A stretch of 64,000 nucleotides of DNA from Spirochaetes bacterium GWE1_32_154 (lineage in GTDB: Bacteria; Spirochaetota; GWE2-31-10). Shown here piece after piece: positions 59,214 to 64,000 of this stretch. Each line of letters begins with the position of its first letter. The first letter of the stretch is position 1. The stretch lies in the NCBI GenBank assembly GCA_001829315.1, contig MIAY01000043.1, positions 1 through 64,000 of the forward strand, written 5' to 3'. The notes below the pieces were generated by a model. It made no database searches, had not been told where the DNA came from, and worked only from the letters and a program-made list of their open reading frames with translations. Position numbers and translations under genes: made by a program.

Positions 59214-59600
59214 TTACTGTATTTGTATTTCAATTAAACCGGGCGCTAACATAGATAGCATCTTTAATGAAGTTTCCTGCCATGTAATTTGTGAATTTGC
59301 TATTATTTTAAAATTATATTTCTGATCAGCCGGTAATGGAGTTACTTTTGTAATCCATTTAATTAATGTTTTAATACCACTTGAGTTTAAAAATGTTAAT
59401 TTAGAAAAGTCCAATTCAACATATTTAACACCATTTGCTATAACATTAGAATGTATTTGTTCAAAAAATGGAACAAAAATTGGCTCAGGATTTTGTACAT
59501 CTATATCACCTGAAAATGTAACTTTAACACCTTGTGGTATATCAAGAAGCTCAACAGTTGCTTTTTCTGTAATTACACTGCTTAATCCAAATTTATTCAT
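59214..59600 (-). CDS. STAS-domain anti-sigma factor antagonist-like protein
   Basis: A 128-residue protein. KYVELDFSKLTFLNSSGIKT is the STAS pattern where the serine of SSG would be phosphorylated by a cognate HATPase kinase. The preceding part has the expected strand-helix order. It follows the HATPase gene by 17 bp and has AGAGGGG upstream. The pair forms a partner-switching module like SpoIIAA/SpoIIAB; the target is unknown. Confidence 0.75.
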   Translation of the reverse strand: MNKFGLSSVITEKATVELLDIPQGVKVTFSGDIDVQNPEPIFVPFFEQIHSNVIANGVKYVELDFSKLTFLNSSGIKTLIKWITKVTPLPADQKYNFKIIANSQITWQETSLKMLSMLAPGLIEIQIQ

Positions 59601-59617
59601 AACTAAATCCCCTCTTC

Positions 59618-60100
59618 CTATTTTAAGTCAAAAATAACAGTAACTCTAATTAAATCACCTTCTACAACCATATTAATCGCAGCATTACTTTCATACCTGA
59701 TTCGTGCAAGACCTAACTGACTGCCACCATCGGTTCTTAAAGCAGCTTCCTGCATTTTTTGCAGATACACTTCCTGCGGGTCACCGGTGCTTATTTTTTC
59801 TATTTCACCAGCGAGTACTTTTGAATTTTCAGGTGTAGCAAAATTTTCAACATTTAAATATAGCTTTGCTTCATCTTTACTATGTTCAACGGAAATTTTC
59901 GTTCCTTCCTCGGATGCATATTTAACAGCATTTTCCAGCAACTCACTTGCTGCCATAGAAATCACATCAGCCCATTTATTATCAGCCAGGGTAATAGACA
60001 AGAAATTTTGAAGAAATGTTCGTACCGTTGCAATGTAAGTCCATCGCGGACCAAAAACCATTTCAATAAAACCGTTTCTAACATTTTTAAAAAGTTTCAT
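59618..60100 (-). CDS. HATPase_c-like anti-sigma/serine-kinase-like protein
   Basis: A 160-residue GHKL-type protein. The N-box is SELLENAVKYASEE. The G1 box (DxGxG) is replaced by NVENFATPENS, so ATP binding is altered. The C-terminus has QLGLARIRYES, which is the usual G2-like motif. It is the first gene of a two-gene unit with the STAS protein. Its partner may be switched by a different chemistry than SpoIIAB (inference). Confidence 0.65.
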   Translation of the reverse strand: MKLFKNVRNGFIEMVFGPRWTYIATVRTFLQNFLSITLADNKWADVISMAASELLENAVKYASEEGTKISVEHSKDEAKLYLNVENFATPENSKVLAGEIEKISTGDPQEVYLQKMQEAALRTDGGSQLGLARIRYESNAAINMVVEGDLIRVTVIFDLK

Positions 60101-60238: not shown

Positions 60239-62008
60239 TTAACTGGTCAATCCATTTTTTAATAATGTATTAACAATCGCAGGATTTGCTTTTCCCTTTG
60301 TTTTTTTCATCATTTCACCAACAAAAAAACTGAATAATTTTTCTTTTCCACCTTTATATTCAGCAACTTGAGCAGGATTTGCACTAATAACATCATCAAT
60401 CATTTTCTTCAATTCTTTTTCATCGGTAATTTGTTTATAACCGTCTTTTTCAATTATTTCAACAAGTGCCCTTTTGGTTTCAAAGGACTTTTTAAGAACC
60501 TCTTTAGCGATTTTACCGCTAATTTCATCACTATCTATTTTTCCAAGAAATTCTACAAAGTTTTCAGGACTGATATGAATATCTTTAAGATCATTTGTAT
60601 ACGAAATAAGCTCATTAAAAAACCAGTTTGATGCATTCTTATGATCTTTATAAATACTTACTAACTTGTCAAAATACGCTGTAAAAGCAGAGTTATTAAT
60701 CAATAATAAAGACTGTTCTTCTGAAAGATTATATATATTCATATAGGTATATTTCTTTTTCAATGGATATTCAGGAACAAATTCTTTTAATTCTTCTATA
60801 TAATCTTCATCAAGAATTATTGGCAATAAATCAGGATCAGGAAAATATCTGTAATCATGAGATTCTTCTTTTGATCTCATTGAAAAAGTTTTCTGGCTAT
60901 TTTCATCCCACAATCTTGTTTCCTGAATAATAGCTTTTCCTGTTTTTTTCAAAACAATTTGTCTTTCTATTTCAAACTCGATTGCTTTTTCGATAGCTTT
61001 AAATGAGTTCATATTTTTAACTTCGGTTTTAGTACCAAGTTTTGTTTCACCAACTTTTCTGATAGAAATATTAGCATCACATCGTAAACTGCCTTCCTCA
61101 AGATTTCCATCACAAATACCCAGTTGAACAAGCACTGAACGCAACATAATTACATAATCTTTCGCATGTTTTGCACATTTAATATCAGGTTCTGTAACGA
61201 TCTCGATTAGCGGAACACTTGTTCTGTTAAAATCAACGGCACTGGCTTTTGACCCCCAAATACCAGGCGCACCAACATGAACCATTTTACCTGCATCTTC
61301 TTCCATATGAATTCTATTTAACTTAATAGCAAGAGGTTTTCCGTTATCATCAATTTCAACAAAACCGCCTGAACAAATCGGCTCTTCAAATTGTGAAATT
61401 TGATACCCTTTCGGTAAATCAGGGTAAAAATAATTTTTTCGTGCAAAAACACTTTTCTTATTAATCTTACAATTTAATGCAAGTCCCGATAAAATCGCCA
61501 TTCGTACTGCTTCATGATTTAAAACAGGTAAAACACCCGGATGCCCGTTACAAACAGGACAGGTGTTGTGATTAGGTTCACTTCCGAATTCTGTAGGGCA
61601 ACTGCAGAATAATTTTGATTTCGTTTTTAAATGAGCATGAACCTCAAGACCGATTACGGCCTCGTATTCATCGTGAGAACCTGCAATAATTGCCGTGGAA
61701 GCAGACTCTTTCTCTTCTCCCGGTCTTGCTTTCTGAGGCGGAACCAGATATGCTGATTTATCTCTAACCGGAGCATTTATAAGAATTCTTTCTAAATCAT
61801 CCCACTCAACCTGATTATCCATTCTCATTTTTGCACTTGATTCAGTCGGATGTGCCGAAGGCGTTAAATCATTGCAGTCTGCACTGTTTATAATTTCCGC
61901 ATATTTCAGGAAATCATCAATCTCTTTCTCATATCCGGCTTTTTCACTCGCACTCACTTCAAAAGAACTTAATTTTATCAAATCATCTATATTAAACTTT
62001 CCACTCAT
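60239..62008 (-). CDS. gatB: GatC-GatB fusion, tRNA amidotransferase
   Basis: A 589-residue chain. Residues 1-95 are a GatC-like helical domain (KFNIDDLIKLSSFEVSASEK then FLKYAEIINSADCNDL and a DNQVEW box). Residues 112-589 are GatB: YEAVIGLEVHAHLKTKSKLF, CPVCNGHPGVLPVLN, and a C-terminal YqeY-like tail. The cysteine set C...CP...CPVC can bind zinc. GatB binds Asp- or Glu-tRNA and phosphorylates the acyl group; GatC holds GatA to GatB. The gene starts 45 bp after the GatA-AspRS stop, so both are in one operon. AGGAG precedes the ATG. Confidence 0.9.
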   Translation of the reverse strand: MSGKFNIDDLIKLSSFEVSASEKAGYEKEIDDFLKYAEIINSADCNDLTPSAHPTESSAKMRMDNQVEWDDLERILINAPVRDKSAYLVPPQKARPGEEKESASTAIIAGSHDEYEAVIGLEVHAHLKTKSKLFCSCPTEFGSEPNHNTCPVCNGHPGVLPVLNHEAVRMAILSGLALNCKINKKSVFARKNYFYPDLPKGYQISQFEEPICSGGFVEIDDNGKPLAIKLNRIHMEEDAGKMVHVGAPGIWGSKASAVDFNRTSVPLIEIVTEPDIKCAKHAKDYVIMLRSVLVQLGICDGNLEEGSLRCDANISIRKVGETKLGTKTEVKNMNSFKAIEKAIEFEIERQIVLKKTGKAIIQETRLWDENSQKTFSMRSKEESHDYRYFPDPDLLPIILDEDYIEELKEFVPEYPLKKKYTYMNIYNLSEEQSLLLINNSAFTAYFDKLVSIYKDHKNASNWFFNELISYTNDLKDIHISPENFVEFLGKIDSDEISGKIAKEVLKKSFETKRALVEIIEKDGYKQITDEKELKKMIDDVISANPAQVAEYKGGKEKLFSFFVGEMMKKTKGKANPAIVNTLLKNGLTS

Positions 62009-62053
62009 TTTGTACTCCTAACAGTATTTTTTATACAAAGCAAAAAAACATGA

Positions 62054-64000
62054 TTACGGCTCAAGTCTGCCTATATCTCTCGGGAATAAAGTCGCTTCAC
62101 GTACATTACCTAAACCAAGTAATTTCATGGTAACCCTTTCCAGTCCCATTCCTAAACCACCGTGAGGCGGCATACCGAATTTGAATGTTTCCAGATAATC
62201 TTTATACGCTGCCGGGTTTAAACCGAAAGCAATCATATTTGCCTTTAACGCTTCGTAATTATGAATTCGCTGTCCTCCGGTTGTTATTTCCAAACCTTTA
62301 TAAAGAAGATCAAATGATCTTGTATAACCCGGTAACCGTTCATCCTGCATTGTATACATTGGTCTTTTCTTAACCGGATAACCGACTATATAAACAAACT
62401 GAGAACCATATTGTTCTTCAATATACTTACAAACAACCTTTTCACCTTCAGGTGATATATCACCATCCATATCTTTTACACCAAGTTTATCAGCGATTTC
62501 TAACGCTTCAATAAAATGAATTCGCGGAATTGATGTTGGTATAATGATTTCCTGACCAAAATATTCCAACACATCAGAATATTTTGCTTTAATATTTTTT
62601 AATATATGAATAAGCAATGCTTCCTGCATATCGATTAAATCCTGCTCATCTTTAATGAATGCCATTTCAAAATCCAAACTTGTATATTCATTTAAATGTC
62701 TGACTGTATTATGTTTTTCAGCTCTGAAAACAGGACCTATTTCAAAGACTCTTTCTAACCCTGAACCAACCATCATCTGTTTATAAAATTGTGGTGATTG
62801 AGCTAAAAATGCCTGTCTGTCAAAATATTTAATTTCAAAAATATTTGACCCGCCTTCAGTTTCATTTGAAATTATTTTTGGTGTTTTAATTTCTGTAAAA
62901 TTATGTAATCGCAAAAATTCTGCAAAAGAACCTGCAATTTCTGACTGCACTTTAAATACTGATAATATTTCAATATTTCGTAATGATATCGGCCGGTTAT
63001 CAAGTAAAGTCGGTAGATTTAAATTGGATAAATTACCTCCGACAGTAAAAGGCACATCAGATGCTGCCTCTGACAATATGGTTAACTCAGTAACCTTTAA
63101 CTCAATCCCGTTATAAGGGGATCGCTCTTCTTTCGTTACCATACCTTTTACCTGTACTATTGACAACGGTGTTAATTTAACCCTGGCAATTTCACCTTCT
63201 AAAACAAGTTGCGTTAACCCGGTTCTATCCCGTAGTGTATAAAACTCAATACCGCCAAGATTATTAATTTTATAAATCGAACCGGACATTGTTATTGTTT
63301 TACCAAGCTGTTCTGATAGATTAGTACAAAAAACTCTGTCTGATGTATTTTTTTCTCTATTTGAATATGAATCTGAAACTTTCTTAATATCTTCTTTTGA
63401 ATACACGGAAGACATTTTTTTCGTTTCTTTAGCATCTTTCTTTGAACTGCTGTTGCTTTGTGAAACATCAATTTTTGATAAATCGGGATACATGGAAAGT
63501 GATTTTTTCTGCTCAAATTTATATCCCACATTGAATAATAAATCTTCGCTTAAAGGTTTTCCGATTAATTGTAAACCCACAGGCAACCCTGAAACCATTC
63601 CTGATGGTACAGAAATAGCCGGTAAACCGGATAAATTCGGTATTACAGTCGTTACATCGCTTAAATACAATTTCATCGGATCAGTTGTTCCTTCACCAAA
63701 TTTAAATGCAACTTCAGGTGTTGTCGGTGTTGCAATAACGTCATATTTCATAAAAATTTTCTGCATTTCTTTCATTATAAAGGTTCTTAATTTCTGTGCT
63801 TTAAGATAATACGCATCATAATATCCTGATGACAGAACAAAGTTTCCGAGTAATATACGTTTCTTAACTTCTTTACCAAAACCCTCAGTTCGTGAAGCAA
63901 AAAGCATTTCTTCATAATTTTGTTGTTTTTCACTTCGTAAACCATATTTCACACCATCGTAACGGGACAAATTAGAACTGGCCTCAGCCGTAGCAATAAA
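62054..64000 (-). CDS. gatA-aspS: GatA-AspRS fusion, 5' end outside window
   Basis: The frame is open to the window edge and reads ATAEASSNLSRYDGVKYG, the conserved end of GatA's catalytic domain, so the true start lies beyond 64000. The GatA part ends near 63490 (VGLQLIGKPLSEDLLFNVGY). A Ser/Lys linker of about 50 residues follows (SNSSSKKDAKETKKM). An AspRS of archaeal/eukaryotic-like, non-discriminating type then runs to the end: OB-fold (GKTITMSGSIYKINNLGGIE), motif 2 (FEIGPVFRAEKHNTVRHLNE), and motif 3 (GGLGMGLERVTMKLLG). It has no GAD insertion. AspRS would charge tRNA(Asn) with Asp and GatCAB would amidate it. Confidence 0.9.
   Translation of the reverse strand, partial: FIATAEASSNLSRYDGVKYGLRSEKQQNYEEMLFASRTEGFGKEVKKRILLGNFVLSSGYYDAYYLKAQKLRTFIMKEMQKIFMKYDVIATPTTPEVAFKFGEGTTDPMKLYLSDVTTVIPNLSGLPAISVPSGMVSGLPVGLQLIGKPLSEDLLFNVGYKFEQKKSLSMYPDLSKIDVSQSNSSSKKDAKETKKMSSVYSKEDIKKVSDSYSNREKNTSDRVFCTNLSEQLGKTITMSGSIYKINNLGGIEFYTLRDRTGLTQLVLEGEIARVKLTPLSIVQVKGMVTKEERSPYNGIELKVTELTILSEAASDVPFTVGGNLSNLNLPTLLDNRPISLRNIEILSVFKVQSEIAGSFAEFLRLHNFTEIKTPKIISNETEGGSNIFEIKYFDRQAFLAQSPQFYKQMMVGSGLERVFEIGPVFRAEKHNTVRHLNEYTSLDFEMAFIKDEQDLIDMQEALLIHILKNIKAKYSDVLEYFGQEIIIPTSIPRIHFIEALEIADKLGVKDMDGDISPEGEKVVCKYIEEQYGSQFVYIVGYPVKKRPMYTMQDERLPGYTRSFDLLYKGLEITTGGQRIHNYEALKANMIAFGLNPAAYKDYLETFKFGMPPHGGLGMGLERVTMKLLGLGNVREATLFPRDIGRLEP

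Follow-up and report, generated by a model that had tools for sequence, protein, structure and literature searches.

A GatA-AspRS fusion and a companion GatC-GatB fusion in Spirochaetota, candidate chains of a covalently assembled Asn-transamidosome

Two neighbouring minus-strand genes close a 64,000-nucleotide stretch from Spirochaetes bacterium GWE1_32_154 (the window; bases 1-64000 of the 100,840-base contig C43), and each of them encodes a fusion protein. The genome, called G000 below, measures 4.03 Mb and is 97.6% complete. The first gene, gatA-aspS, joins the amidotransferase subunit GatA to an aspartyl-tRNA synthetase (AspRS), while the second, gatC-gatB, starts 45 bases downstream and joins GatC to GatB. 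In tRNA-dependent asparagine formation, a non-discriminating AspRS (ND-AspRS) makes Asp-tRNA(Asn), which is then amidated by the amidotransferase GatCAB, glutamine supplying the ammonia. The window edge cuts the 5' part of gatA-aspS. Followed past base 64000, the frame is a complete ATG-to-stop open reading frame (ORF) of 960 codons (contig 62054-64936) with an intact GatA, and the junction at 63350-63560 holds neither a stop nor a frameshift. Directly upstream, on the same strand and 89 bases away, lies asnS, encoding an asparaginyl-tRNA synthetase (AsnRS) of 470 aa (PRK03932, 670 bits).

Profile searches identify the parts of both chains. In the GatA-AspRS protein, Pfam finds an Amidase domain at 26-467 (486 bits), an OB-fold at 549-621 (31 bits) and tRNA-synt_2 at 643-954 (277 bits). 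The GatA half matches NCBIfam gatA TIGR00132 with 604 bits (cut-off 481), and the synthetase half matches PRK05159, aspartate--tRNA(Asn) ligase, with 530 bits (cut-off 353) and aspS_nondisc TIGR00458 with 409 bits (cut-off 368). In the second chain, Pfam places GatC at 19-89 and GatB at 114-588, the latter also over its NCBIfam cut-off. Both chains had been proposed in a first-pass annotation of the window, together with an archaeal-type AspRS and a role in tRNA-dependent asparagine formation. Its reading stands with respect to the fusions (a 960-aa ORF with both domain sets over curated cut-offs, a 589-aa ORF supported by Pfam and NCBIfam), the AspRS family and the pathway; the upstream AsnRS was overlooked, since the window ended before it. 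An archaeal GatDE Glu-tRNA(Gln) amidotransferase was considered and rejected, the GatA amidase being the glutaminase and the GatB models scoring 498-648 bits versus 119-159 for GatE. Neither fused chain has an asparaginase domain match in Pfam or NCBIfam.

A database search for the fusion, which the first-pass annotation had proposed, was carried out on a sample of 392 genomes from the phylum Spirochaetota with the linker and AspRS part as query. The same junction was recovered in 15 of the 392, in fusion-sized or contig-cut frames, and GatA was confirmed in all 15; these genomes belong to five families (f1, f2, f3, f20 and f37). Thirteen of the fusions are complete and stop-free, that of G126 meets a gap of N four residues short of the end of the AspRS match, and that of G008 is divided between two contig ends. 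A 1100-aa frame in G126 was rejected as a triple fusion, as it reads through the N gap between AspRS and GatB. In a search of G000 and 40 relatives (41 genomes), six carry a full-length fusion (G000-G004 and G006), while it is split in G008 and decayed in G005. In a scan of named genomes, which leaves room for independent fusions in distant phyla, 80 loci were among the matches listed; AspRS stands in frames without GatA in 78 of them, and L165 and L166 are fusion loci from metagenome-assembled genomes (MAGs) titled Spirochaetes bacterium. The fusion genomes lie in tens to hundreds of contigs, as an artefact of assembly or annotation might lead one to expect, yet the identical junction in 15 genomes of five families makes such an artefact vanishingly improbable. 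Because the same fusion is complete in 13 genomes and gap-cut or split in two more, neither chance nor assembly error accounts for it, and its conservation in 15 genomes rules out assembly error or a frameshift as its origin. The GatA-AspRS fusion is real.

The second fusion is tied to the first. A search with full-length GatC-GatB matches 231 of the 392 genomes at E 1e-100 or better. The alignment extends back to the beginning of GatC (query residue 1-6) in 14 genomes, each of them a GatA-AspRS genome. In G126, the 15th fusion genome, a run of N occupies the place where GatC would be. None of the remaining matches listed begins before query residue 54. The two that start lowest are those of G079, at 54 and running through four stop codons, and of G040, at 79 within a frame of 532 aa, so that no GatC-GatB fusion was found outside the GatA-AspRS genomes among the matches listed. 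Its presence in 14 of the 15 GatA-AspRS genomes and in no other listed indicates that the two fusions travel together. The gatC-gatB gene lies directly downstream of gatA-aspS in 11 of the 15, and GatB follows the N gap in G126. The suggestion that such fusions are plausible from other bacteria was examined within Spirochaetota, where they are listed solely with GatA-AspRS.

Table 1. Coordinates of the fused genes, their domains and related features. Plain numbers are window positions; entries beginning with L are locus coordinates.
Feature	Coordinates	Strand	Remarks
gatA-aspS, 3' part	62054..64000	-	gene start at contig base 64936, past the window
GatA domain, C-terminal part	63506..64000	-	full domain is protein residues 1-477
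linker	63347..63505	-	residues 478-530, including the conserved helix-like motif YTxExIxxISxSYxNR just ahead of AspRS
archaeal-type AspRS domain	62057..63346	-	residues 531-960; OB-fold anticodon-binding and class II catalytic domains
gatC-gatB fusion gene	60239..62008	-	589 aa; GatC about 1-100, GatB 113-588
class II synthetase paralog	L137:8569-9804; L138:2908-4143; L144:1631-2965	opposite to fusion	resembles PRK06462, far below cut-off
GatB with asparaginase-like domain	L149:3572-5980 (G328); L156:6732-9188 (G202); L212:1894-4380 (Spirochaetaceae MAG)

The catalytic and zinc motifs examined are retained. The Lys-Ser-Ser triad of GatA and the three class II motifs of AspRS are kept in all 15 fusions, and the Cys4 motif of GatB in 14 of 14 GatC-GatB proteins. 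In three genome pairs, the ratio of nonsynonymous to synonymous substitution rates (dN/dS) ranges from 0.02 to 0.17 for GatA and AspRS and from 0.06 to 0.57 for the linker, with dS near saturation in two pairs. From the equivalent of residue 477 to that of residue 534, 14 fusions have 55-65 intervening residues, and the YTxExIxxISxSYxNR segment, seen in none of the unfused AspRSs inspected, is recognisable in 15 of 15. A predicted structure of the L166 fusion, made with an alignment (A3) that includes three single-AspRS rows, one of them from L165, has a mean predicted local distance difference test (pLDDT) score of 73.9 and a predicted template modelling (pTM) score of 0.54; the stretch 479-514 is disordered and is followed at 516-531 by a helix of low confidence. 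RNA regulation was rejected, ten fusion-region loci from the 15 genomes giving no Rfam match at gathering score.

Phylogenetic trees suggest a common source. In an AspRS tree of 61 rows, the fused domains form one side of a branch with a support of 100/100, and in a GatA tree of 67 rows the 15 fused GatAs are grouped with the lone GatA of G005, again at 100/100. Since this GatA sits next to that of G008 inside the group, the fused rows alone need two changes in the GatA tree. G005 (95% complete) retains the lone GatA at L050:2628-4329, with a linker remnant that runs into stop codons near the contig end; it has no GatB or GatC match and carries AsnA and GlnRS. The same absence of GatB and GatC matches and the same two enzymes are found in G007 (93% complete). 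A single origin of the fusion, followed by loss of the fused system in G005, is the simplest reading of these sequences. Among unfused Spirochaetota loci, the order is gatA-gatB-aspS in 6 of the 12 fetched.

To what specificity the fused AspRS belongs is suggested by its relatives. The nearest solved relative is 1n9w/3kfu, AspRS2 of Thermus thermophilus, deposited as non-discriminating; 3kfu is, we take it, the T. thermophilus Asn-transamidosome entry. Residues 26 and 85 of AspRS are reportedly the subject of work by Feng and by Charron, both in 2003, and we assume that in archaeal AspRSs they separate the types, Trp26/Lys85 marking discriminating and His/Pro non-discriminating enzymes. Position 26 of the fused AspRS is His in 11 of 15 and position 85 is Pro in 13 of 15. 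In the nine genomes of this order, the free AspRS has Gln (7) or Ser (2) at position 26 and an insertion near position 85. That of G000, on contig C8 (L003:1480-2817), is also of archaeal type, and its anticodon domain has an insertion near the site of one in human cytosolic AspRS. A bacterial-type AspRS is absent from the six PF00152 matches of G000, which are two AspRSs, AsnRS, LysRS, an EpmA-like protein and HisRS. These comparisons favour a non-discriminating fused AspRS and a discriminating free AspRS, a division that would be least secure in G000.

The tRNAs of G000 are consistent with such a system. The scan found 33 tRNA genes, with ARAGORN run on 30 of the 33 loci; tRNA(Ala) and tRNA(Ile) are absent from the set, which is therefore incomplete. 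In bacterial amidotransferases, U1-A72 is a determinant for amidation and G1-C72 an antideterminant, according to PMC9976931. G000 has the tRNA pattern looked for in a transamidosome, with one tRNA(Asn) bearing U1-A72 and one tRNA(Asp) bearing G1-C72 (ARAGORN); of its two tRNA(Gln), U1-A72 is present in the one that was read. Outside the fusions, G000 encodes a second GatA, GatB and GatC; GluRS is present and no GlnRS match was found. Four of the nine genomes in the order have a second GatB, namely G000, G002 (where a contig end truncates it), G003 and G006. The same four, and no others, have a second GatC, of small size. GlnRS is found by NCBIfam in G001, G004, G005 and G007. The second GatB is thus present in 3 of 3 genomes with GluRS in which GlnRS was not found and in 0 of 4 with GlnRS; G006 and G008, having neither a GluRS nor a GlnRS match, are uninformative here.

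Other routes to asparagine were sought in the same genomes. G000 has no AsnA (no PF03590 match). Its sole PF00733 match (E 6e-4) was rejected as AsnB, being MnmA, and its weakest PF00152 match (L006) was rejected as archaeal asparagine synthetase A, being HisRS. The fused system is the only asparagine-forming route found in G000. AsnA occurs in 4 of the 9 genomes of the order (G001, G005, G007 and G008), and a full-length AsnB-like protein over the TIGR01536 cut-off in 5 of 9 (G001-G004 and G006); these proteins also resemble polysaccharide amidotransferases. Glutamine synthetase III, maker of the amide donor, is encoded directly upstream of the fusion in G004 and G008 and of the GatA remnant in G005. 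The separate aspS and asnS that the first-pass annotation proposed to look for are both in G000, as the free AspRS and the AsnRS upstream of the fusion.

Based on sequence and comparative genomics, the two fusion proteins probably constitute a covalently assembled, two-chain Asn-transamidosome that makes asparagine on tRNA(Asn). The GatA-AspRS chain would attach aspartate to tRNA(Asn) and would carry the glutaminase as well. The GatC-GatB chain would then activate the bound aspartate and amidate it with ammonia from GatA, giving Asn-tRNA(Asn). The AsnRS encoded upstream would recharge free asparagine, the free AspRS would charge tRNA(Asp), and the second GatCAB would serve Glu-tRNA(Gln). Archaeal-type AspRS is a dimer, and by analogy the likely particle is (GatA-AspRS)2(GatC-GatB)2.

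Several observations weigh against this assignment. Position 26 of the fused AspRS is Tyr in G000, G002 and G003 and Phe in G001, and at position 85 G001 has Glu and G008 has Val; with atypical residues in some fusions, non-discrimination is argued from family resemblance. In G000, the free AspRS passes PRK05159 (485 bits, cut-off 353) and misses TIGR00458 narrowly (363 versus 368), so that the family models alone cannot tell the two enzymes apart. The GatC part, over its Pfam cut-off, falls just under the curated TIGR00135 cut-off (44.8 versus 47.1 bits). The gatC-gatB gene is located away from gatA-aspS in G002, G003 and G006, and the L166 model, at its pTM, lacks a confident arrangement of the GatA domain relative to AspRS. 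The relation between GlnRS and the second GatB comes from seven related, incomplete genomes. An AsnA or AsnB-like gene is present in 8 of the 9 genomes of the order, with neither only in G000, so that the case for reliance on the fused system for asparagine extends no further than G000; and with AsnRS present, Asn-tRNA(Asn) can form in G000 without the fusion. Tyr26 and the AsnRS of G000 would also fit a discriminating fused AspRS, its link to the amidotransferase having another role and this GatCAB working mainly on tRNA(Gln), for which some GatCAB must be responsible since GlnRS was not found. The second set of GatA, GatB and GatC in G000 speaks against this, as does the lack of a second GatB in both fusion genomes that have GlnRS (G001 and G004), and we regard it as improbable. 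Marginally more doubtful still is that the halves end up as separate proteins, through internal initiation or proteolysis of the linker. The linker is disordered in the model and its amino acids change fastest, and in-frame ATG, GTG or TTG codons occur in or near it in 12 of the 14 loci scanned. However, none of these codons has a Shine-Dalgarno match at 4-12 bases (a weak scan, which matched 5 of 13 gene starts), G001 and G004 have no such start codon at all, and the fused frame is maintained in 15 genomes. An internal translation start in the linker was rejected, as a conserved candidate is lacking in the 14 loci.

If the two chains do form an Asn-transamidosome, what the tether accomplishes is a separate question. 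That it channels Asp-tRNA(Asn), instead of only fixing stoichiometry or stability, is hypothetical and drawn from the architecture. In the fullest version, to which we give slightly less than an even chance, a permanently assembled two-gene (GatA-AspRS)2(GatC-GatB)2 would pass Asp-tRNA(Asn) from synthetase to amidase inside the particle, the linker helix would position the modules, and the single origin together with decay in an AsnA-bearing relative would mark a specialised asparagine factory. A serious alternative, which we consider a substantial though lesser-than-even possibility, is that the fusion serves stoichiometry, co-translational assembly or stability, with released Asp-tRNA(Asn) handled as in unfused systems. 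The linker is long, at 55-65 aa in 14 fusions, and about two thirds disordered in the model, and the fusion of GatC to GatB as well suggests selection for fixed subunit ratios generally. GatCAB of T. thermophilus is stabilised by binding the archaeal-type AspRS, according to PMC4206432. Against this alternative, a linker segment recognisable in every fusion goes beyond the needs of a mere tether.

Some neighbouring and related genes were recorded alongside. After gatC-gatB, at window positions 59214-60100, lie two same-strand genes, one with a HATPase_c_2 match (Pfam) and one short and STAS-like by eye. The class II synthetase paralogs of Table 1, about 410-440 aa, adjoin the fusion gene or lie close to it in G130, G086 and G165, in each case on the other strand; the model that they resemble, PRK06462, is archaeal asparagine synthetase A. 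In G130, an AsnB-like gene (PF00733) stands one gene beyond the paralog. G000 further encodes a LysRS with a C-terminal HD domain (L002:1072-3180, contig C38; 702 aa), which is matched weakly by frames of 702 and 703 aa in G002 and G003, and an EpmA/GenX-like lysyl ligase of 460 aa with an N-terminal extension (L005:1480-2862, contig C6), just below the genX cut-off. GatB proteins of other Spirochaetota (Table 1) have an asparaginase/GatD-like domain (PF00710 and PF17763) at the C-terminus and are encoded within gatA-gatB-aspS operons; G292 and G376 perhaps also have the extension, judging by frame length, and the GatA of G202 spans two overlapping frames. The first catalytic-Thr motif of this domain reads GGAI in place of GGTI, with HGTDT retained, so the extension may be an asparagine/glutamine sensor rather than an active enzyme.

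If the assignment is true, these genomes would hold a compact two-gene pathway for tRNA-dependent asparagine formation. An Asn-dedicated and a Gln-dedicated amidotransferase in one genome would be useful for learning what makes GatCAB choose tRNA(Asn) versus tRNA(Gln). A natural covalent transamidosome would make it testable how firmly such particles retain mischarged Asp-tRNA(Asn); the fusion may keep the faulty Asp-tRNA(Asn) from escaping into protein synthesis. To our knowledge, the transamidosomes described so far are non-covalent particles. The first-pass annotation knew of no described GatA-AspRS fusion, and the titles and abstract openings listed from the open-access literature include no report of this or of a GatC-GatB fusion.

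The closest known system is the Asn-transamidosome of T. thermophilus, in which ND-AspRS2, GatCAB and tRNA(Asn) represent the same enzymes, AspRS2 being the nearest solved relative. In Thermus, however, separate chains assemble around the tRNA, whereas here there are two fused chains, AspRS and GatA being linked by the gene itself, and the companion free AspRS of G000 is also of archaeal type, with no bacterial-type enzyme matched. PMC4206432 describes AsnRS coexisting with the tRNA-dependent route in Thermus and Deinococcus, where the route serves asparagine synthesis, and shows that Bdellovibrio enzymes make asparagine in this way and rescue an asparagine auxotroph of E. coli. In the clostridial aspS-gatCAB systems (e.g., C. 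acetobutylicum), AsnRS is likewise accompanied by an additional AspRS and a second GatCAB (PMC4206432), but their genes are unfused, in the order aspS-(gatC)-gatA-gatB or gatA-gatB-aspS. Among the matches listed, gatA and gatB share a stretch with aspS in at least 29 of the 78 named unfused loci; many contigs are short, so this count is a minimum. By its model name, the AspRS-GatC bifunctional protein (NCBIfam NF009460, PRK12820) also joins AspRS to an amidotransferase subunit; the partner there is GatC, whereas here it is GatA, with GatC on the GatB chain, and since Pfam finds no GatC match on the synthetase chain the NF009460 architecture is not the one present. A GatC-GatA fusion of Mycobacterium smegmatis likewise puts GatCAB subunits in one chain, but it is a selected mutant with raised mistranslation (PMC7541841), and a self-described non-systematic analysis in that paper found no gatC-gatA fusion among about 500 gatCAB genes of other bacteria. 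The parts are known, from the Thermus and Pseudomonas transamidosomes and the AspRS-GatC fusion named in NCBIfam; their combination here would be a covalent variant.

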